64,000 bases of DNA from Dillenia suffruticosa. Taxonomy: Eukaryota > Streptophyta > Magnoliopsida > Dilleniales > Dilleniaceae. Position numbers and translations under genes: made by a program. Below the pieces are notes generated by a model. It had not been told where the DNA came from. It saw nothing but the letters and a program-made list of their open reading frames with translations, and did no database searches. The stretch spans positions 1,105,609-1,169,608 of the forward strand of contig JAVTVX010000009.1 in NCBI GenBank assembly GCA_033439265.1, in the 5' to 3' direction. How positions within the stretch are numbered: position 1 is the stretch's first letter; each line of letters opens with the position of its first letter. Shown in pieces: positions 1,246-61,370 of the stretch.

Positions 1246-3918
1246 TTAAGTGCCGCCTGCAGCATCAAAACCACCTGCTGGTTTGCGGTTCAGGTAGCGG
1301 ATGACTGCATCTTCAACCCTGTAACCACAACAGATAAATGCATCAGCATATCCATTCACTGAACTGAATCACACAAGAATGTAAGATTTAGATATTCAGC
1401 GGCAAGGTCTAAAACATAAAATTTGATGAAATCCATCAAAGATCAAGGTGACTGAGGACATCCATCATAACACAAGCTAGAGCTAAATCAATTGTTTATC
1501 CTACAGACTCTTATAGATTAATTCATGGACTGATTTTAACTATGTATTGATGCCAGTAACCAGGCATTCAACAACCACAACAGCCAGAGGGCTCAAATAT
1601 ATGCAACTTAAGTGTATCAAAAAAGAATCAAGTTAATTCAACTAGCATCATCAACTTCAAAGAAGAAACAGCATACCCTGAAGTAATCTTTGTGATGAAA
1701 TCAAATGACAAAATTACATTAGAGACTCGGTGTAAAGCATCTTCTATATCGGCAGACTATCTACTAATCCAAGATCATGCAACAAGAAGGGATATAGTAC
1801 CCTTAGATTCCTAAAGTAATACGTGTTCTTCAATTTAATTGAGCCATTATGATTTGTGACTGCATATGAATAATGCTAGTTATCCACAGAATTTGATATA
1901 TTCTTCTCAATGCAAGAAGAAAAATTGAAGAAAATTGACTAACTAAAAGGTAAGAGTTAGTCCCTCACTATACCTAAGACCTCCAAATCAATTCCTTTTT
2001 AAGGAACCAATGGCCGAAACCACAGGAATGCAAGAAAACCAGCATATTCCAACAAGAGAGAACAAAAAGCCGAAGATTCTACCATTTCTCTACAATCATA
2101 AGGACCGAGGCACCAACATCATGGCACTCTCCTAGTAGTTGAACATGCAAAATGATACATTCAAGATGGCTTTTAATGGATTATCATAACTATTCCCATT
2201 AGTATTGTTGACATCTTATCAAAGTTGCAGTAGAACATCTATCTTTAGTAAATAAAGCAAATTAATTCTGCAATTAATTCATGTTAAAAGTATGCATATG
2301 AAATGCCCAGGAAACGAGACTGTATTTAAAGAATGTATGTGCAAACCATGGCTGATTGAAGAAGTCTGAACGATGCTCCTTTTCTGTATTACGGCTAGAA
2401 TCCCCTGCAATGAACTTCAGATCCCTACTCTGTGAAGCGATCAAAGCATTAATAAAATCTACAGGAGACTGACTGAATCCAAGAAAGAAAGCTCGCCTCC
2501 TACGATGCTCCTGGATCTTCTTTATAGTCTCACAAATAACTTGATCGCATTCATCAATCTCTTTGTTCTTCTCGGCATTGGTCAGAAAAGCAGCCATTTC
2601 CTTATCTAATGGAAAAGGAATATCAACTTGCACATCGTAACAAAAGTTGCCAGCAGGACAATCACCGGAGAGCTTGATATAATGCTGCAACACAATAGGT
2701 CTTGGGGGAAATAAGTGCTGTGATACTGCCCCGGGTATCATTGTGAACTTCATCTTTTCCTGGCCAAATACTCTCCGCAACTGAAAGTCGCATGTAAAGA
2801 ATGAAGGATCATTTGGATTCTGTAACCTCTTACCTTTTACATAGTGCCAAAGTGCAGCGATAATCCTGGGTCGAGTGTCAACCTCGATCCCGAGCACCTC
2901 TTTCAACACTGGCGAAAGCATAAACTTCTCAGGAACATTAATCATCTCCAGACTTATCTGGGCAATAAATTCCTTATTCCCTTTTCTTTTAACCTCAAAT
3001 CCCTCATGATGCACAGATGATCGAGCATTCTCCCATACAATCATATGTTCCTCTGGATACAAATTCTGGTCCAATGAAATAGTTACCCTTTTGAAATATG
3101 ATGAGAATTTTGGATATGGAGTGCTTGCTTCAGTTACTGCCTTAGATGATTCGGGATCTACTCCATCTTCCAAAATCCTCCCAACAATCTTAAGTGTCCA
3201 AGATGGTGGCTCAGAGTTCTCAGTGCTTGTTGGTGTCTGATTTGCAAATGTATTGAACACATAAATCCGAAGTGTTTTCTGAAGATGAATTGGATTTTTA
3301 AGTGCATCCTGAATATCGATTTTCTTTCTAGAAATGGCAGCATCAATACGGGCCTCATATTCAACTAACTGGGTGTAAAGAGCAGACTCAGGCAAAATCG
3401 CAGCAACTCTAGCAGGTATCTGCTTCTCTTGCGGCCTCTTCTTGTTCCTCCGTGGAGCTGGGGTCAACTCCATTGTCTTAAAAGGCAATGCTGCATTGGC
3501 ATTTCCAGAACCAGATGTTCTTGAGGGAGGTTTCTGAGTTGCTCGCCTTGCACTTCCTGTTCCAGGTGTTGGCATAACTGGTGAGGACACACCAGCTCCA
3601 CCAGCCCCAGAGGACTGCGGTTGTACAAGAGATTGTGCTTGAACTTGGGCCTGAGCTTGACTCTGGGTTTGCGATTGCAAATGAGCTTGAAATTGTGCAT
3701 GTGCAGCTTGAGCTTGTACTTGTGCATGAGCTTGGGCATACTGGGTCTGAGCCAAAGCTTGAGCTTGCGGCTCAGATAACTGAAAATGACCCGGATAGCG
3801 CATTCCATGAACTGGAGAAAACTGAGATAGAAGAGGATGTTGCTGTTGTTGTTGTTGTTGTAGCTGTTGCTGTTGTTGTCGCTGTTGCTGTTGCTGTCGC
3901 TGTTGCTGTTGCTGTTGT

Positions 3919-3992
<74 letters not shown>

Positions 3993-4130
3993 TTGATTTT
4001 GATATTGATTATGAGGTTGAGGTTGTTGCTGTTGCTGATTCATGTTTCCTAATAAATATTGTCGAAATTTCTGAGAATTACCAAATAGGTTCAAACCCCC
4101 AAAGTTGTTCCTTCCTTGGTTCCAGCTCAT
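1246..4130 (-). CDS. SNF12: SWI/SNF complex component SNF12 (SWP73/BAF60 homologue)
   Basis: Encodes a subunit of SWI/SNF chromatin-remodelling complexes in the nucleus. I read two coding exons: 4130-2347 and 1318-1246 (618 residues). The ATG at 4130 begins MSWNQGRNN and lies 7 bases inside the exon that follows the 5'UTR intron. Order in the protein: a Gln-rich N-terminus with a long polyQ tract (about residues 46-98), an Ala/Gln-rich stretch, the conserved [14 protein letters not shown] block, the SWIB/MDM2 domain (around [20 protein letters not shown]), and a C-terminal [22 protein letters not shown] block. Reading through the donor at 2346 gives a false tail; splicing to 1318 restores [20 protein letters not shown], which matches the family C-terminus as I remember it. 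The family is well known in Arabidopsis (CHC1/SWP73B). The polyQ length is unusual. Confidence 0.95.
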
Positions 4131-4136
4131 TTTCAC

Positions 4137-5344: not shown

Positions 5345-5715
5345 CCGACTAGTATCTAAATTCTTTCGTTTTTTTTTTTTTTTTTTTTTTTTGTTGTGAG
5401 ATCTAAATTCATATTTTTATTAATTTTATTCTAATTATTTTTGACTTTTCTATAGAGAGAACTATCTAATATAGTTTTTTTTTTCCTATTGTTTGACAAA
5501 TCTTGATTAAAAAACTTGATATCTTTTCTATTAAGTTAACTGACCGCTAATTTCTTGTATGATAAATGAAAAACTAAGAAAAACCGAAAAAGAATAGACA
5601 AAGTCCCAATAGGACAGCCTAATGGTATAAACCCCATCTCCAACTTAATGATCTTAGATTCAAATTTTTATACAATAAAAAAAAAAAATCAACAAAAAAA
5701 AAGGTTGGGACCGAA
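5345..5715. repeat. SINE-like fragments and poly-T/poly-A tracts
   Basis: A 20-base-plus T run near 5371 precedes AT-rich sequence resembling family B in reverse (5395-5560). At about 5601-5690 is a plus-strand copy of the short family C element: AATGGTATAAACC box A-like stretch, TAGATTCAAATTTTTATA box B-like stretch, then an A-rich tail. No target-site duplication was obvious for either. Confidence 0.45.
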
Positions 5716-6429: not shown

Positions 6430-7051
6430 CAAGTAGAGTCAAGGTAGAGAAGTTAAAGTGATCCCTGGCATACTATAAAAGACCTCCGGTGATGGTTGTG
6501 CTATGACTCATAGTTGGGATTATGCATTTATTTATTTATTTGGCAAAGCAAAGGGAATTATACGAAATTTAAATTCTTAATACAACGATCTAATTGTGAT
6601 TTGGTACCAAAAAAATAATAAAGAATATCAAACAAATGGTGCGAGTGGGGATAAAAGGGTCATATGCGAAGATAAAATTGTTGAGAAGCCAAGTGTGAAC
6701 CCAAAAAAAAATAGGAAGGAAAATCAGGAAATTTTGGAGTTCTAGAAAATTTTTGGTGTGGACAATGCCTCCCTTGACCACCCCACGCCCCCCTCACCCC
6801 TGTATCTATCCCTGTATAGAATAGTTTTGTGTTTCTCAAAAAGCTTTGATCTTAAAAAATATATTTATTGTCGGTATTAAATTTTAATAAGCGATTTAAT
6901 CATATAAATCAAGTATAAATCAGCAAAGATACTTATAAAAATGTATTACTCTTCTAGTAAAATTCATATATAAGAGATATTTTTATACACTTTTTAGAAA
7001 AATCTCTCCATTTGGCCCTTGTATCTTCGTTAACCAAAAAAGAAAAAGTTA

Positions 7052-7211
7052 ATCAAATTTCTTTGAGTTGAGTGGTCGAACACTCTATTCCTTAATCAGA
7101 GATCTCGCGTTCGAGTATTAAGAATAACAAAAAAGGATTTAGGAGAGTCAATCCCTAAAATGAGTCTTACAGTGTTTGAACTAGATTAATCGGATAAAAA
7201 TCAAATATAAA
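7052..7211 (+). repeat. tRNA-derived SINE, family A, with target-site duplication
   Basis: The head has a tRNA-like box A (GAGTGGTCGAACACTC) and box B (CGCGTTCGAGTAT). The body contains GGATTTAGGAGAGTCAATCC and a TTGAACTAGATTAATCGGAT block, ending in an A-rich tail. It is flanked by the direct repeat AGAAAAAGTTA (7041-7051 and 7212-7222). A second copy with its own flanking repeat lies at 61797-61982. Confidence 0.8.
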
Positions 7212-7723
7212 AGAAAAAGTTATTATAGTACATATCAAAATTCATGCAAAATTGTAGAACAAGGCAAAACAAATTACGTATTTTTGCCTTATGTCTATCT
7301 AACACAAGGTAAAAGCTACGAGATAAACAGAGTCTTAAAGAATTAAAAGAAAAGGTCTTTCTCAAATACTCTACAAAACAATTCATCTTTTAGCAAGGAG
7401 ATGAATTCAAGGGCAAAATCATAAACATAGATAGGTTTAAGCCTAATAATGAGATCTAAAGTGGCAAAAGTCCCTCAAACTATTCAACCAAATTGCATGA
7501 GGTTTCCAAGGTGAGGTGAGCACAAAATCCTGATTTGCAATCATTCAATTTTGACCAAGGTTTAGATAATGAATGATCAAAGAAAAAAAGAAAATTTTAG
7601 GTTAGAATACACTTACCTTCCTAAAGAGCCAAAAAACTATGGCTCTCTAATGATACTGATGATTGTTGCTAGCAACTCTTTGTGATCGAGAAAAATGATA
7701 TGAACTTCAAAAATGGTATGTGG

Positions 7724-8175
7724 ACAATAGGTGACTCTATCAGACTATGGCGTTCAATGATACAATGAGGGTTACAATCTGATCCAATGAGGGTTACAAT
7801 CTGATCGATCGTCAACCATTAATTTATAAGCACTAGTGATATTCATGAAGTGGCATGGCAAATGATTCTATCAGGTTACAGCACTCGCTAATAAAATGAG
7901 GGTTACGATCTGATTGAACGCCAAATATAAATTTATAAACACTAGCGATATTTACAATGTGGTAGGCAGGTAACTGTGTTAGGCTAGGGCGCTCGATAAT
8001 AAAATGAGGGTTTGTTCCTAAGGAGACAATTTAGTGATATAAATCTCCTCCCCAACTTGATAATTTCAGATTTAAATTCTTATATAATAAAAAAGAAATA
8101 AAATGAGGGTTTACGATCTAATTGAACGTCGGATGTTAATCTATAACCACTAGTGATATTTACAAAGTTGAGCAA
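7724..8175 (+). repeat. Tandem array of about 115-130 bp units, three diverged copies
   Basis: Units begin near 7724, 7857 and 7967. Each contains a TATCAGR-like stretch, an AATGAGGGTTACRATCTGAT block, TTTATAARCACTAGYGATAT and a short variable end. The first unit has an internal repeat of the AATGAGGGTTACAATCTGAT block. The third is interrupted by a SINE (8014-8096). Confidence 0.8.
8014..8096 (+). repeat. Short tRNA-derived SINE, family C, with 16-bp target-site duplication
   Basis: An 83-bp insertion splits the third tandem unit. It is bounded by the perfect direct repeat AATAAAATGAGGGTTT (7998-8013 and 8097-8112). Removing it restores the unit sequence seen in the neighbouring copy. Inside are a box A-like stretch (TAGTGATATAAATCTCC), a box B-like stretch (AGATTTAAATTCTTATA) and an A-rich end. 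Relatives lie near 5601-5690, 51790-51870 and, on the minus strand, 60105-60190. Confidence 0.85.
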
Positions 8176-8711
8176 TAAAAGAGAGGGGGAGGGGGTAAAA
8201 AGATATGTTGGATTTGGTGAGCTACAACAATGTGGCAAATCTGGCCAACATTTGCCTTGCTAACCTCACTTAATTCGTTAATTCTAATAATTTGAATCTG
8301 TGGATGAAAGAAGGCTATGACTTGTGTGCTTGTAAATATGAAGGAATATTACTTTATTAAGCGCAAAAAATATTTTATTCGATAATTATTAATATATATG
8401 GAGAAAAGAAAATAAAGAATCATGTATATTCATAAGAAAATAACCATATAGAAAAATGAAAATAATTTTTGTAATTCTAATACCAAGTTAGACACAAAGG
8501 TCGAATTATTATTTCTTATAAAAGTATTTTGTTAAATTAATAGTCTAATAATACTTTACCTTTTCTTGTCAGATTCTCGAATCTTGACCATAAAGACCCT
8601 GCCCATATACCATAATAATTATAATAATGATAATAGATATTTATATGATATAATGTAATTGTACAATATCAATAATTTATAAAATAAATAAATAATAAAT
8701 GAATAAAAGAC

Positions 8712-8920
8712 ACCAATATTGGTTAGTGCAGTTGGACAAAGTGGTTGTATCATTTCATCACTTCCAGGGTATGACTCGAGATAGAAATAGAAAAAATGAA
8801 TATTGGGAGATTCATCCCTGTAAAGCGGGCCTTATAACAGTCAATCTAGAATAATCAAGGTAAAACTCTAGACACCGGGAGTGGTCTAACCATGATAAGA
8901 AAAAAAAAAAAAAGAAACAT
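8712..8920 (+). repeat. SINE-like repeat, family A relative
   Basis: Starts with a tRNA-like GTTAGTGCAGTTGGACAAAG and a GGTATGACTCGAG box B-like stretch, followed by GGGAGATTCATCCCTGTAAA (compare the body block of family A) and a TAGAATAATC block, ending in a run of A. No flanking duplication was found. Confidence 0.55.
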
Positions 8921-9149
8921 TTGGAAAAGCACCATATTTTGGGCCAACCAAGTTACCTTTTTGGGCTCGTAAGAAGGGCCCAGCCCACATTAATCCGACT
9001 ACCAGACGGTGAAACTACTGGGATAATTTTGGTTCAATTTGACTTATTTTTCCATACTGAGAAATCAGGAACCTGTTCTCTGGATTAAAGTAAGTCAACA
9101 AGGGATAGAAGAGCCGGTTATTAATGGTCTTTGACTTCTTTTTTTTCCT

Positions 9150-40834: not shown

Positions 40835-43800
40835 ATGGCAGATCTAATGGCGCCACCCAGATCACCAACAGATCTCTTCGGAGATCCGATCGACTCCCAC
40901 CCACTCTGGTTCAAACCATCATCATTCCTCCGAAATGATTTCGACTCCGAGTCCTACATCGCCGATCTCCGCACTTTCGTTCCTCTGAACAATCTCCGTT
41001 CAGAGCTCCAATCACATCTCTCATCTCTCAAGCACGAGCTCATTGAACTTATCAACCGCGACTATGCCGACTTCGTCAATCTCAGTACCAAATTGGTTGA
41101 TGTTGATGGCGCGATTATTCGAATGAGAGCTCCATTGACGGAGTTGAGAGAGAAGATTGAGAATTTTAGAGCAAGTGTGGAGAATTCGCTTGTCGCTTTG
41201 CAGAATGGTTTGAAGCAGAGAGCTGAGGCTTCGGCTACTAGAGAGGTGTTGGAGTTGTTGCTTGATACTTCTCATGTCGTCTCCAAGGTCTTGTTTCGAA
41301 ACCCTAGGTTAATTTCTATTTGATTTCTGCTTTTCAGTAATGTCTATTACCCAAATGTTGGTGCTTTTCCTTGTGAGATCTCGATTGAAACCCTAGTTTT
41401 GTTCGCTTTTAGTTATTTTCCGCCTCTGTTTGATTCGTCCGTTCTTTATTGACGAGAAATGACGAAGTTAAATGAAATTGTGTGACAACAATTAAGAATA
41501 TTATTGTATGTCTCTAATGTCTGAATCAAAACTCTAGTTTTAACTTGTCCCTGTTTAATTTGTTCTTTCCAATTGCGAGAAACAAAGAGATAGAAGTGAG
41601 CATCCTTATATTGATGCAGTTTGGTCACCTGATATGCTACTTGATACATAAGATCTGGATTTTAAACCCTAATTTTGACTGCTTGTAGTTTGGTTGCTGA
41701 GAAGTGAAGAACTTAGAGTCAATAATGTGGTTTTTTAATGTGACGATTAGAGGTAGTTTATAAAAATTTGTGGCTTGTTACTTGTTAGGTTCATTACATT
41801 AGATTGATTTCTCGGTGTTCGAATTGTTGGAATTCATTAACTTTTCCTGTTGCATCATGTAGGTATTATCACAACCAGCTTTTGTTTTGTGAGGACCATA
41901 ACTTTTGATATATATGATGCCAATGACTGGATTTTTTTTGGATATGTTAATATTTTGCTACTGAAAATTACATGTCATTACTAAGTAGTCTAGATTAATG
42001 ATACGTCTCCGAATATAATGTATGGTTATTCAAATGAAGTTGAAGCTGTTCTGAAAATTGATGCAGGTTGAGAAACTTATTAAGGAGCTACCCACTGTTC
42101 CTGCAGATTGGTCTAATGCAGATTCAAATAATGTGGAGAAGGGTAATATGACCAATGGAACCTTGCAACAGACTGAGACTGGAACTAGTATAAGGGAAAC
42201 CCAAAGCATGCTTTTGGAGAGAATTGCCAGTGAAATGAATCGGCTTAAATTCTACTTTGCTCACGCACAGGTTCTGTTTTTTCCCCTTATTTTAAACCTC
42301 TTGTTTCCCACTTTTTGTTGGTTTGACATAAATTAGCTACACCGTGGTAGGTTGAACATGGTATTAGAAGCAGTATCCACTTATTTACCACCTTTCTTGA
42401 TTTTGGAACTTGTGCCACTTACATGATGTCTTGTTGTTTCTAGGCTGTTTTTTTTAATAGAAAAGAAAATATATTAGATGAAAAAAGATTGTACAAAACT
42501 CCAAGGAAAAATATGTTAGATGAAAAAAGAATGTATAGAACTCCAAGGACAAGAAATGCTTAGAGGGGAAAACAAAACATAACATAATCAAAAGGAGAAT
42601 AGATCTCCAACCCCTCCAAAACTCTTCTAGTCTAAATTGTACAGAACTCCAAGGACAAGAAATTCTTAGAGGGGAAAAACAAAACATAACATAATCAAAA
42701 GGAGAATAGATCTCCAACCCCTCCAAAACTCTTCTAGTCTAAATTGTACAGAACTCCAAGGACAAGAAATTCTTAGAGGGGAAAAACAAAACATATCATA
42801 ATCAAAAGGAGAATAGATCTCCAACCCCACCAAAACTCTTCTAGTCTAAGACCTTTTTTAATCCTTGAGACTGCAGTTCGCAAAGAAAAATAAAGCAGGA
42901 AGAAAACCCATAGAAGAGAAAATTAAAGGTTCCTGAAAATAAAACATTCCGCCTTCTTTCAATACCCATGGCTACCCTTCTCCAATACATTGCCTTCATT
43001 ATTTGCCTGTGCTACCCTGTTGGGGGTTCTAAAATCTTCTCACCCAATTACCTTTTTCCTCTTTTTTTTTCTCTTATAGGCTGATTATCAAATAAATCAA
43101 CTAATCTAGGTAAAGTAGGAATGCCCGAAGAGGGAGTTTTCTTTTGTTTTCTTGACTCTTTTTTTGTGGTGTTTATTCATGCATTCTACATGGTAAATTG
43201 TTGGTACTGTCCAATTAACATCCTCTGGTGTTGAGATGGTTAAAAAAGGTTGAAATAGCGCTGTCTAATTGATATCCTCTTATCTTCTCTGAAAATTTAG
43301 ATACTTTTGTTTTCTCTGGAAAGCATATGCTACTTATCCAATGCTGTTATAACTTTTCTTTGATTATATTTTCATCAATTTTATGATGTTATTTACCATG
43401 AAGCATACCCAACATATTATTCGATAACAAATAGCTCCACAAAACTGTTCTACTGATTTATATACATGCCGCTACCAATATTGGTCCTCCATGTTGAAGT
43501 GACAAGGAGTAAATTTTGCCATTGCGATTTTCACCACTCAACCTGTCTGTAGCTTTGTAAACAATATGGAAATCACAATCACATTATTTCCTATTCTTTC
43601 AAATATTCACCACCATTTGACGAGAAGGGCAGGCCTGGCGCAATGGTGGAGTCTCTCCGTTGTGTCCTGCAGTCCCAGGGTTCGAATCAGCCTCCTTGCA
43701 AAAAAAAAGCAAGGGGAAGGCTGCCTAGGTATTCCCTTCCCCAGACCCCACAATGTGGGAGCTTCGGCACTGGGTACGCTCTTTACTTTTTATTCACCAC

Positions 43801-50645: not shown

Positions 50646-52385
50646 AATAACCTTTTGTTCCACCAGCCTTTAAGAAAGGCTAAAATCAGCCATTGATTTT
50701 GCAAAAAAAATTTATATCTTTTTCTAAACGTTCTCCCACTACCTCCCACTGGAGTAGACATTACTAACAATCAAAGCCTTGGTACCAAGCTGATGTAGGG
50801 CGACAATGGAGGATTTTAGGGAAAAAAAATTTAGAGTTTATTTGATTGATTGTCTTACTGATTAATTTCAAGAGCAATCTGTTTATTTTGTGGGGAATCA
50901 AACTTCAGCTACTAAAATTAAAAGAAATAATGAGGGCAAGAACAAATAATGCCTTTTAAAATTCTTGTTATAATAAGGTTGCAAGTTTTAGAAAACTCCT
51001 AAATAGCTCCAACAATAATTAAAATAGAAATTATTAAATAATTAGAAACAAAAAATAAAAATTAGTTCAAATAATAAACTTCTAAAAAGAAAAGAAAAGA
51101 AAAGTGCTCGATAATCCTTTGTTGGATAAAAGAAAATATTATTTCAAAGAAGAATATTATTTGGATAAAAATTGGTTTTAGCCCCAAAACGAAGATTTTA
51201 AATGAATTTTTTTTTGTTTTTATTTTTATTAATAACCAAAGTCAGAAAAAAAAACTGTGCCAATACTTTTTGCCCAATTGGTTCTATATTTTCTTTTTTT
51301 TCTTGGATTTGACCCATTTTGTTTGGTCCAATTTGTATTTTTTTCTTAAATCATTAATATTCGATAATCATGTCGGGTTTAGATTAAATTCAGTGCGAGT
51401 CAAGTTGATTTCTTAAGAGATAAAAATTTCTTCTGTCTATTTTTTTTCATACATAAAACTCGAATTCAAAATTTCATACATAAAACTCAAATTCAAAATT
51501 TAAGTTAAAAAGATATTAGCTGTTCAACCACTAAACTAATAAGGTGTGGACATACATGAGCTTAAATAATATTAGTATAGAAAGAACTATGTTTTGTGAT
51601 TGAAAAAACATAATAGTCATAACTTTAGGGTCAGACATGATTCTAACCGATTAGTTTTAAGCTTGGGTACATATAGTTCGACTAGTAGAGTACTACCCGG
51701 CCAAGTTTCTTTTTTAATTTGTAACACTAGCTTCATTGTCCCCCAATACTAAGGGTTCACCTTGGTCCCCTCCAAAAAGAGCTCATAGTCTTAAGGAGAC
51801 ACTCTAGTGATACAAACTCTCCTCTTCCAACATGATAATTTTATATTTAAATTATTGTAAAAAAAAAAAGATCTCTTTAAGCTTTTCTACACACATGAGC
51901 CTCTATTTTGGCCTAGGGTTTCCAACTTGGGCAAACTCCAAGACAAAGCTTTGGGCCAAGTCACCAACGAACAATCAATTTTATAAGATAAAATATTAAA
52001 TCTCTTAAAATTTAAAATTTAAAATTTAAAAGTAAAAAAGAAACTATATTAAAAAAACCATCTCCTAAATAGGCCTTCAGATGTTCAAATTGGATTATCT
52101 TGAGTATGATTTTAGATATGGAAAAAAAAAAAAAAGCACAGCAGCTTTGGGCAAAGCCATAGCTAGGTCACGTGCTAATCTAAAGGTTTTTGAGGTGTCG
52201 GCCTTTGCTTCCCATCCATCAAAACTAGGACATATACAAAGACACACATACCCGCATATTTGAACTAACACCACCATCCCATGGAGAAAAGATTGGAGGG
52301 CTTGAGCCTTTTGATGGACACAAAGACAAGGATCAAGACCAGCCACCATTTGCTTAGGCTTCACAAGTGTGAGTCTGGACTCAAA
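50646..52385. other. Repeat-bearing intergenic DNA
   Basis: Contains a minus-strand family B copy at 51355-51545 (with an internal short duplication of CATACATAAAACTC(G/A)AATTCAAAATTT) and a plus-strand family C copy at about 51785-51871 (CTAGTGATACAAACTCTCC, TATATTTAAATTATTGTA, A-run). The last 300 bases are likely the 3'UTR of the next minus-strand gene. Confidence 0.5.
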
Positions 52386-54309: not shown

Positions 54310-54744
54310 TCAAAGCATCATGATCTTAAACTCATCAAAGCTAAGAACACCATCACCATTCAAATCAAAGTGACTGATCATAACCCTACACTCATCAATA
54401 GACTTCTTTTCCCCCAATTTGCTAAGCATCTTCCTCAAACTTTTCGGTGTGATGAAACCACACCCATCTGCATCATACATCCCAAAAGCAATTCTTAGAT
54501 CATTTATCTTCTCATCATAATCATCTTCACCACCATCACCTTCAATCAGTCTAACAAAATCCTCCAAACATAGTAGTCCATCTCCATCCGAGTCTATGGA
54601 CATGACTGCAATCTCTGCCTCATTCAGCATCAAATCTCCTCCTAACAACCCAACATGGTCTCTCAACTCTAATGGTGAAATTTTCCCATCACCATTTCCA
54701 TCTATGAACCGAAAAACGCGCTCATACTCCATTGTATTCCTCAT
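54310..54744 (-). CDS. Calmodulin-like protein (CML), four EF hands
   Basis: Calcium sensor, probably cytosolic or nuclear, of the plant CML group close to CML31/CML23-type proteins. Intronless, 144 residues from the ATG at 54744; Met5 is an alternative start. EF-hand loops begin at Asp15 (DGNGDGKISPLE), Asp51 (DSDGDGLLCLED), Asp91 (DADGCGFITPKS) and Asp127 (DLNGDGVLSFDE). Loop three ends in Ser where a Glu usually coordinates calcium, and loop two ends in Asp, so loops one and four should bind best. No lipidation motif or membrane segment is visible. Confidence 0.93.
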   Translation of the reverse strand: MRNTMEYERVFRFIDGNGDGKISPLELRDHVGLLGGDLMLNEAEIAVMSIDSDGDGLLCLEDFVRLIEGDGGEDDYDEKINDLRIAFGMYDADGCGFITPKSLRKMLSKLGEKKSIDECRVMISHFDLNGDGVLSFDEFKIMML

Positions 54745-58919: not shown

Positions 58920-61370
58920 CCTAAAGGTGAACACTACAGTGGTCTGAAAGTGTTTCAAGAATATGAATCGTACTTATCATACTTATCCAGATGGAGTGGC
59001 AATCATACTTATCTTTTTGACATCAAAGCCTCCAAATTTGAATGCTAGGATTTGGAAAACATATGAATCGTACCTTTTTCCTTATCCAGATGATGTCAAA
59101 AGTCAAAATACATCCCAATCCGTGTCTATCCAGCACCATTCCACTAACCTTTAGTTTCTCGGGTAGCCACTGGTTTTCTTAAGAATGGGGTTGAATTCGA
59201 CTTTTATGCACGGAGAAGATAGGAAGAAAGCTTTATCTCGAATCGGATTTAGTCGGATCTAATATTACTCTGGATACCATGGTTAAAAAAAAAAATTCTT
59301 AGCCCAGTCCTTACAATTAATTAATTAGTGCAGTTGCATCTTATAAGTTCATACTTCAAATGTCATTCAAATTTATGAGGGTATGGTGAATAAATGAATA
59401 AGCACAAAAAATAATATAGGCAACAAAATAAATAAATGAATTAAGTAATAATAATTAGCACTAAAATCCGAAAAGGCCTTAGAAAATTTCTATGGCCAAA
59501 TTAATTTCTATTTTTTGATAAAGAAAATTTTCTAATTACAGTTCTAAAAATTTTAACTTATAACAATAAGAAACTAAATTTTAATCTTAAATTTTAGATT
59601 AATCGTTTGAGAAACTAATATAAGGGAGAAAAGAGAACAAAAATCCAGTGTAGCGTGTCATTGAGAAAAAAATACCCCAACAAATTTTCTATTTTGATCT
59701 CTTGTATTGTTGACAAAACTTTTACGTCGATTGTCAATCTACTACAATCTTCCTCTTTTATTCACCTAATTAATTTCCACTTTCTTATAAAGGAATTTTT
59801 CTTATTACAATTTAAGGAATTTCGAATTAAAAAAATAAAAACTAGAAAACAACGAATTACTTTTACTTATTTCAATTCTAGGAAATTCAAACTAATAAAA
59901 CATTTAAATAAAAGAATTATTTTTAATTATTTCAAACCAGTCCAATCTTGTCGCGTCCAGCACGGCAAAGAATCAGGCTAGCCCCATAGCCCTGACATGG
60001 GAGTAGGCGGGCCTGGACCTTGTGCCAAGTTGGGCCAACACGTTGAGGCCCACGTGGGCCTACAGAGTTTATTTTATTTTATTTTGGTACATAGTTTTTT
60101 TTTTAATTTTTTTTTATTTTATAAGAATTTAAATCTGAGATTACCAAATTAAGGGAAAGAGATTTATACTATTAGACTATCTCCCAGGACACAGAGTTCG
60201 TTATCTCCCAGGGACACAGAGTTTGTTATAATAACGAAGACAAAATGCCCTTTCTCCGAGCAAAAATTACTCTCCTATGAGGTCAAACGTGAGCATGGAA
60301 GGAATAGTGATGCAGGTCAGCAAATTTGGGTCTCACCATGTGGCCAACCAAAAATTATCCATTACCCACAATTTTTTTTTTTTTTTTGGGTGCTTACCCC
60401 TCAAATCTTTTTAGTTTCATTTAATTTGTTTCGACATTTTTGAAGAAATTTAGAGGAATATCATAGTCCAATATAGCATTCAAGTATTCCCATAACAAAG
60501 AATGTCTTTTTTGGTAATACATTTGTGCCAAGCAATGGCGTTTAGGACTCTAATCTTTATTGAATGGAACAATTATTCAACAATGGAGCCTAACTCCTAG
60601 TTGGTCCAGTGGTCAAACATTAATATCTTCAAATAAAATATCAAATTTGAGTCTTGTGAAGGGCAAAAACAAGTGCAAGAGAGTTTTACTGGATCTAATC
60701 CAACTCAAATAAGATTTAATCAGATCCAACGTAACTACCAAATATTAATGGTTTATACCAAAAAAAATTATTCAGCAATCAAGTTAATTCCACTCTTTAG
60801 GAATGAAAAATGTTAATACTACAGAACAAAACCAAAACAAAGAAGGTTAATACTTCAGAATTTTAATGATTCACTAACTTGTTGGACAGACAAGCATCAA
60901 ACGAGATCGATAAAATAGAGGTGCAATGAAGGTGGAGTAGACAAACAAAAGGTAGAATCTGAATGTAATTTGGCACTAAACAATGAAAATTCTTGGTACA
61001 CATTCGCCACTAAAGTATACATGAGAACCCCTTAACGGAGAAAATACTTCTTTTTTAAAAAATGCTAACTATTTAAAGATGTAGTTTAAGGAGAAGAGAA
61101 TTGTCCTAGACTAAACATGAGTCATCACTCGGTTCATACCTTGTTTGCATATTTGTAGCAGACAAAGGCCATAGCACCGGTCCTATATAAGAAGGGTCTT
61201 TCATTCTTATCTCAAAAAAAGGACCTCCACGTCGCAATACAGACAATGTAGTGGTTGGGACCAGCATATCCCATTGTTGTCATTCTCAAGGTCCGGAGCT
61301 TTATCTTCACCGATGTGATGACATGGATGAGGTTCCGAAATTGTGCCATGTTGGCTATGCTTCCGGTTTC
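58920..61370. other. Intergenic DNA between BAHD and RNase J
   Basis: Contains the BAHD promoter, a segment at 59399-59468 also found at 27003-27069, a partial family B end at 59215-59290, a GC-richer GGGCC-rich patch at 59985-60060, and a minus-strand family C copy at about 60105-60190 followed by a small direct repeat (ATCTCCCAGG(G)ACACAGAGTT). A plus-strand family B SINE is listed separately. No gene recognised. Confidence 0.5.
60585..60765 (+). repeat. tRNA-derived SINE, family B, with target-site duplication
   Basis: Head with box A-like AGTTGGTCCAGTGGTCAAAC and box B-like AATTTGAGTCTTG. Body AGAGAGTTTTACTGGATCTA and AAATAAGATTTAATCAGATC, ending CCAAATATTAATGGTTTAT and an A-rich tail. 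Flanked by AATTATTCAACAAT (60571-60584) and AATTATTCAGCAAT (60766-60779), one mismatch. Confidence 0.8.

Follow-up and report, generated by a model that had tools for sequence, protein, structure and literature searches.

An 83-bp insert in a Dillenia suffruticosa tandem array is very probably a fossil member of a tRNA-related SINE family that lacks a body

An 83-bp insert in a local tandem array of the Dillenia suffruticosa genome is, with high confidence, one fossil copy of a SINE family that is related to tRNA, lacks a body and was presumably moved by LINE machinery. The copies of this family are dispersed, have common ends, carry an A tail and promoter boxes at tRNA spacing, and are flanked by duplications of variable length, and empty sites exist for them. 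The original prediction, made from the letters of the DNA, is supported in kind: there is an insert, a duplication and a family, and the family is a SINE of tRNA type.

The window, as we call the whole 64-kb stretch of DNA analysed, covers positions 1105609-1169608 of contig C9 in a 596-Mb genome, of whose assembly 26 large contigs make up 595.4 of 596.4 Mb. The surroundings of the insert are gene-rich: Pfam domains were found in 4 of 10 open reading frames scanned, which encode SWIB domain (2277-4136, minus strand), COG2 N-terminus (40835-41320, plus strand), EF-hand (54313-54744, minus strand) and Transferase-family (PF02458; 57577-58893, minus strand) proteins.

Results

The insert and its target site

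The third unit of the array is split, as originally described, by the insert: once the insert and one repeat are skipped, 73 of 89 alignment columns are identical between units 3 and 2. The 16-bp repeat that borders the insert is perfect and occurs exactly twice on the plus strand of the window (the strand searched), 83 bp apart (Table 1). An A-rich end, also claimed at the outset, is present. The empty site reported in the neighbouring unit exists, with 15 of 16 bases equal to the duplication, but it lies at 7890-7905 and not at 7901-7916. Three further stretches of the window, near 5601, 51785 and 60105, had been named as relatives that make the insert part of a family, and all three are significant both by blastn (9e-12 to 6e-17) and with the family model.

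Table 1. Positions in the window of the insert, its parts, its target site and its relatives.
Feature	Position	Strand	Details
SINE copy, complete, 83 bp	8014..8096	+	family model positions 1-83; nhmmer 1.7e-20
Target-site duplication, 5' copy, 16 bp AATAAAATGAGGGTTT	7998..8013	+	identical to 8097-8112
Target-site duplication, 3' copy, 16 bp	8097..8112	+	exact match to 5' copy
Empty site AATAAAATGAGGGTTA, neighbouring tandem unit 2	7890..7905	+	15/16 bases as in the duplication
Box A position, decayed in window copy; consensus CAGTCTAGTGG	8027..8037	+	consensus position 14-24
Box B position	8069..8079	+	GATTTAAATTC in window copy; GGTTCAAATCC in copy L140
A-rich 3' tail AATAAAAAAGA	8086..8096	+	tail start at consensus position 77
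Family relative	51789..51871	+	blastn E 6e-17; nhmmer 1.7e-15
Family relative	60108..60190	-	blastn E 2e-14 (60184-60110); nhmmer 1.8e-16
Family relative	5604..5684	+	blastn E 9e-12 (5604-5682); nhmmer 1.3e-17

Borders and anatomy of the element

An alignment of 80 copies gives the majority consensus GTCCCCAAGGGGACAGTCTAGTGGTACAAATCCCCCTCCCCAACCTGATGATTTCAGATTCAAATTCTTGTATAATAAAAAAAAA and defines the ends of the element. In the 40 bases upstream, information content does not exceed 0.40 bits and is mostly below 0.3; it stands at 0.8-1.8 bits in the first 12 element positions and is back to background past the A tail. These sharp borders at both ends delimit an element of about 76 bp plus an A tail, which is complete and not a fragment. 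A run of at least six A residues lies near the 3' end in 76 of the 80 copies. Box A begins at consensus position 14, box B at position 57 and the tail at position 77. From box B to the tail there are about 9-13 nt, so little sequence that no body can be recognized; the claim that the body of a SINE is missing holds, with only about 13 nt over this distance in the consensus. Because the consensus folds no better than shuffled sequences (z -0.41), we dropped two hairpins that are visible by eye.

Truncation at the 5' end is common in LINEs, and the 5'-truncated tail of a larger retroelement (a LINE or a longer SINE), or of a processed mRNA, moved by the same LINE machinery, would have an A tail and duplications that look alike. 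We consider such an origin very unlikely, since the 5' end is common to all 80 copies, with the contrast in information content between flank and element given above. Moreover, a query with the first 63 nt gave 40 scored places, 12 of them new by eye, and each of the four that were fetched lacked a body and stopped at the short 3' end typical of the family. Conservation falls almost to nothing to either side of the 80 copies, and no larger element is visible.

Promoter boxes

We scored boxes A and B over 17 positions with the patterns TRGYNNARNGG and GGTTCRANNCC, the textbook consensuses. Two versions of the family consensus score 14 and 15 of 17, values reached by none of 1000 shuffles each. 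The box-like stretches originally pointed out in the insert are therefore significant in the family consensus but not in the window copy, which scores 11 of 17 on its own and is matched by 248 of 1000 shuffles. Four other copies (L137-L140) score 15, 14, 14 and 16, with a perfect box B in the last, and a source-like sequence that we composed after inspecting these four scores 16. All 20 tRNA genes fetched from the same genome score 15-17; boxes A and B are 43-45 apart in these genes and 43-44 in the family.

When 4742 stretches of 85 bp were sampled, 4 reached a score of 15. Scanned more finely, these samples and the window gave scores of at least 15 at six places: in L084, L123, L124, twice in L127 (where one is a family copy) and at window position 43636. 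By eye, the match in L124 looks like a tRNA gene, and those in L123 and at window position 43636 look like the heads of longer SINEs. The latter belongs to a longer SINE candidate at about 43616-43760 on the plus strand, whose box A is TGGCGCAATGG and whose box B is GGTTCGAATCA (8 + 8 of 17); after them comes a body, which presumably resembles those of Au-like SINEs; the head at L123:3681 is similar to it.

Relationship to tRNA

ARAGORN calls no tRNA in the 64-kb window or in the consensus, the Rfam tRNA model has no match in window positions 7001-9000 or in 20 less decayed copies, and an Rfam scan of these positions and copies returned nothing relevant. We compared the consensus with 20 tRNA genes fetched of the 63 listed, which amount to 15 distinct sequences of the isotypes Lys, Cys, Ile and Asn, and 13 of these 15 do not stand out. 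The 3' half does match a tRNA-Lys(TTT) (L101, C32:40187-40269) over 27 nt, with a score of 17 against a null mean of 6.7 (0/500 shuffles), and there is a weaker 3'-half match to a tRNA-Asn (L117; score 12, p 0.002). The tRNA-Lys(TTT) is organelle-like, and the 357-kb contig that carries it, C32, is probably organellar. The match may point to a source of the family or to common T-arm similarity.

Could the copies instead be a burst of retropseudogenes whose parent was an ordinary mature tRNA and not the source gene of a SINE? This reading would account for the tRNA spacing of boxes A and B and for the two 3'-half matches, but we rate it as highly improbable: box A is preceded by 13 nt rather than 7, neither an acceptor stem nor a CCA can be made out, ARAGORN calls no tRNA, and 13 of the 15 tRNA sequences compared fail to stand out. 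With the tRNA models silent and 13 instead of 7 nt before box A, the SINE family is tRNA-related by its promoter and no plain copy of a tRNA. The description of the insert as tRNA-derived thus survives in part: the consensus has boxes A and B at tRNA spacing, but given the silence of ARAGORN and the Rfam tRNA model it can be called only tRNA-related.

Target-site duplications across the family

Duplications are a property of the family and not of the window copy alone, as had been anticipated. At a threshold of 9 or more for the score of the repeat between a copy's own flanks, 51 of 83 copies have them, as compared with 4 of 245 pairings of the upstream flank of one copy with the downstream flank of another; the remaining 32 of 83 had no duplication at this threshold. 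These copies are mostly the best-scoring matches of the searches and not a random sample. L001 was excluded since it repeats the window copy, and the near-identical duplicates L066, L067 and L074 were removed before the counts on 80 copies, in 50 of which the duplication is 9-21 bp long (median 16). The base preceding the duplication in these 50 is T in 19, C in 19, G in 10 and A in 2. The nick pattern of L1-type elements is TT/AAAA; a clear signature of this kind was not found before the duplication in the 50 copies, and the tail introduces a bias into its A-rich beginning.

Among the relatives in the window, the copy at 51789 has a borderline duplication (AAAAAGAGCTC/AAAAAGATCTC, score 8, a score also seen in 7 of 245 null pairs), the copy at 5604 has no significant one (score 7 by the same own-flank scoring), and the copy at 60190 has no credible one: its score is 8, but the 3' repeat lies 39 nt beyond the end of the element.

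The variable length of the duplications favours target-primed reverse transcription and opposes a cut-and-paste transposon. That the family is a miniature DNA transposon (MITE), which would likewise be short, numerous and non-coding, is barely credible, for the termini (GTCCCC... and ...AAAAAA) are not inverted repeats and cut-and-paste elements make duplications of fixed length, not of 9-21 bp.

Copy number and distribution

A genome search with the insert (8014-8096) gave at least 41 matches. Three queries were used in all, namely the window copy (551 first-look candidates), a less-decayed version (943) and the majority consensus (1523), and 40 candidates were scored for each. The matches scored occupy at least 103 distinct places, a few of them local duplicates. 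Since the three other copies of the window are absent from the scored lists, the family is larger than these lists. Rather than a handful, as a mistaken reading of the insert would have implied, there are many copies, and they are dispersed (1523 first-look candidates for the consensus, 40 scored).

Two samples of the genome were searched for further copies. In 21 stretches at arbitrary places, mostly mid-contig (124 kb), there was no strong match (best E 0.012); five, with E at most 4.3e-6 (L120, L124, L127 twice and L130), were found in a sample of 80 kb made up of 16 stretches that lie 1.2-2.2 Mb from the start of a contig. As a control for noise, the best E in the reversed window was 5.6e-4, and the reversed 124-kb sample gave no match up to an E of 10. 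If density were even, the probability that all five fall in the near-start sample would be 0.009, or about 0.02 with the adjacent L127 pair counted once. Pooled, five copies in 204 kb correspond to about 14,600 copies (95% interval 4,700-34,000), and because the sampled stretches do not represent the genome proportionally we claim only the order of magnitude: the data suggest a family size of the order of 10^4 copies genome-wide. By contig fifth, from the outermost to the innermost, the 103 scored places number 21, 33, 14, 22 and 13 (KS p 0.011), which suggests that copies lean only mildly to contig ends, more weakly in the scored places than the two sampling sets suggest.

Some copies lie next to one another. 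Two are adjacent at L012:151-309, where, by eye, one adjoins or lies within an older, partial copy in inverted orientation, and same-strand pairs occur at C15:8764353-8764516 and L127:2016-2181. The copies L065, L066 and L067 (C20:3.79-3.94 Mb) follow one another in steps of about 75 kb with an identical weak flank match in all three, which suggests that a large segment was duplicated locally and that the three did not insert independently.

A related array with a reciprocal insertion

A search with the tandem unit returned two candidates, the window array itself and a place at 996 kb on contig C15 (80% over 64 query bases). Against the array and its upstream flank (window 7601-8260), the C15 sequence (L136, C15:996150-996649) is identical at 251 of 318 aligned bases when both insertions are skipped. 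The best alignment path ends in unit 2; the C15 site corresponding to the left part of unit 3 (28 of 36 columns) also continues without an insert. The sole family match in this sequence is another copy in the opposite orientation (E 6.7e-21), which lies between two exact ATAAGTGATT repeats (by eye, 15 bp with 2 mismatches). The C9 array is empty at the place of the C15 copy, so that presence and absence are reciprocal. Each insertion being missing from the other array, both look younger than the split of the C9 and C15 arrays. Judging by their sequences and their similar distance from the contig start, we infer that the two array regions are homeologous.

Age and activity

Copies diverge from the majority consensus by 18.8% on average (transitions 16.2%, transversions 2.6%), with a median pairwise identity of 73%, and the best identity to the consensus is 93% among the matches listed (majority-consensus search, 40 scored of 1523). 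With a mean divergence of about 19% and no copy above 93% among the matches listed, the family looks inactive. Decay from C to T is strong, and the directional rates are partly circular, as the source-like consensus was chosen by a 25% rule.

Discussion

We infer a mode of movement for the family in which Pol III would transcribe the element from boxes A and B, and a host LINE reverse transcriptase would copy the A-tailed RNA into staggered nicks at the target site, each insertion leaving a duplication of 9-21 bp. The LINE partner would most likely be of the L1 clade and would require only the A tail.

A simple animal SINE, the rodent ID element, consists of a tRNA-related region followed directly by an A-rich tail, and its source gene is BC1. 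The present family resembles it, by description only and in a host of another kingdom, in having a tRNA-related region and an A-rich tail. Similar in kind are the poly(A) tRNA-derived SINEs of plants, which, in the available text of PMC3747384 and PMC10741241, are like this family in their boxes A and B, A tail, duplications, dispersal and non-coding nature. They differ, in a comparison made by description, in that this family is body-less: box B is followed by about 13 nt before the tail begins, where SINE-Finder assumes 20 nt or more (PMC8825457, in the portion available). With the plant SINEs Au and TS the family has in common a tRNA-type head. According to the part of PMC3747384 available, TS has about 100 nt of 3' sequence in common with an RTE LINE and ends in a TTG repeat, and Au-like SINEs end in T; this family, by contrast, ends in A, and a LINE-derived 3' domain could hardly be accommodated in it. 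The same source describes many flowering plants as having only L1-clade LINEs together with poly(A) SINEs without common 3' sequence, and proposes poly(A) recognition. The family, which leaves hardly any space for 3' sequence derived from a LINE, fits this proposal as there set out.

Such an element is too compact for the rule by which plant SINEs are usually searched and may be passed over by annotation. We coded the SINE-Finder grammar with GTTC[AG]A as box B. The available text of PMC8825457 prints another string, present in 2 of 80 copies, and gives distances of 25-50 nt from box A to box B and 20-500 nt from box B to the tail. Under the grammar as coded here, the less-decayed consensus fails on the 13 nt from box B to tail, and the majority consensus is without GTTC[AG]A. 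Of the 80 copies, again as coded here, 47 have box A, 22 box B and 16 both at proper spacing, and 3 satisfy the whole grammar within the element plus 30 nt.

Six words of the consensus had no match in the literature searched, a negative limited to that literature, and we do not claim absence from print. The family may already be catalogued; otherwise it would be a new or uncatalogued family within a known kind of SINE, and what is notable about it is its small size and the lack of a body. It is conceivable, though we think it rather unlikely, that body-less ‘micro-SINEs’ form a class found widely among plants and missing from annotations, since current structural grammars demand that box B be intact and that 20 nt or more separate it from the tail. 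If this were true, the family, with its order of 10^4 copies, would be the first clear case, and an A tail alone would suffice for mobilisation by LINEs in plants.

At about 76 bp, consisting of promoter and tail, the element is near the minimum for a Pol III retroelement. The family suggests that the de novo annotation of SINEs has a blind spot. Its insertions could serve as markers of the genome, and where they were examined, in one array, they seem to postdate the split of the two related arrays. If confirmed across species, the family would support the idea that L1-clade LINEs of plants recognise their templates in a relaxed manner, by poly(A) only, as proposed in the available text of PMC3747384.
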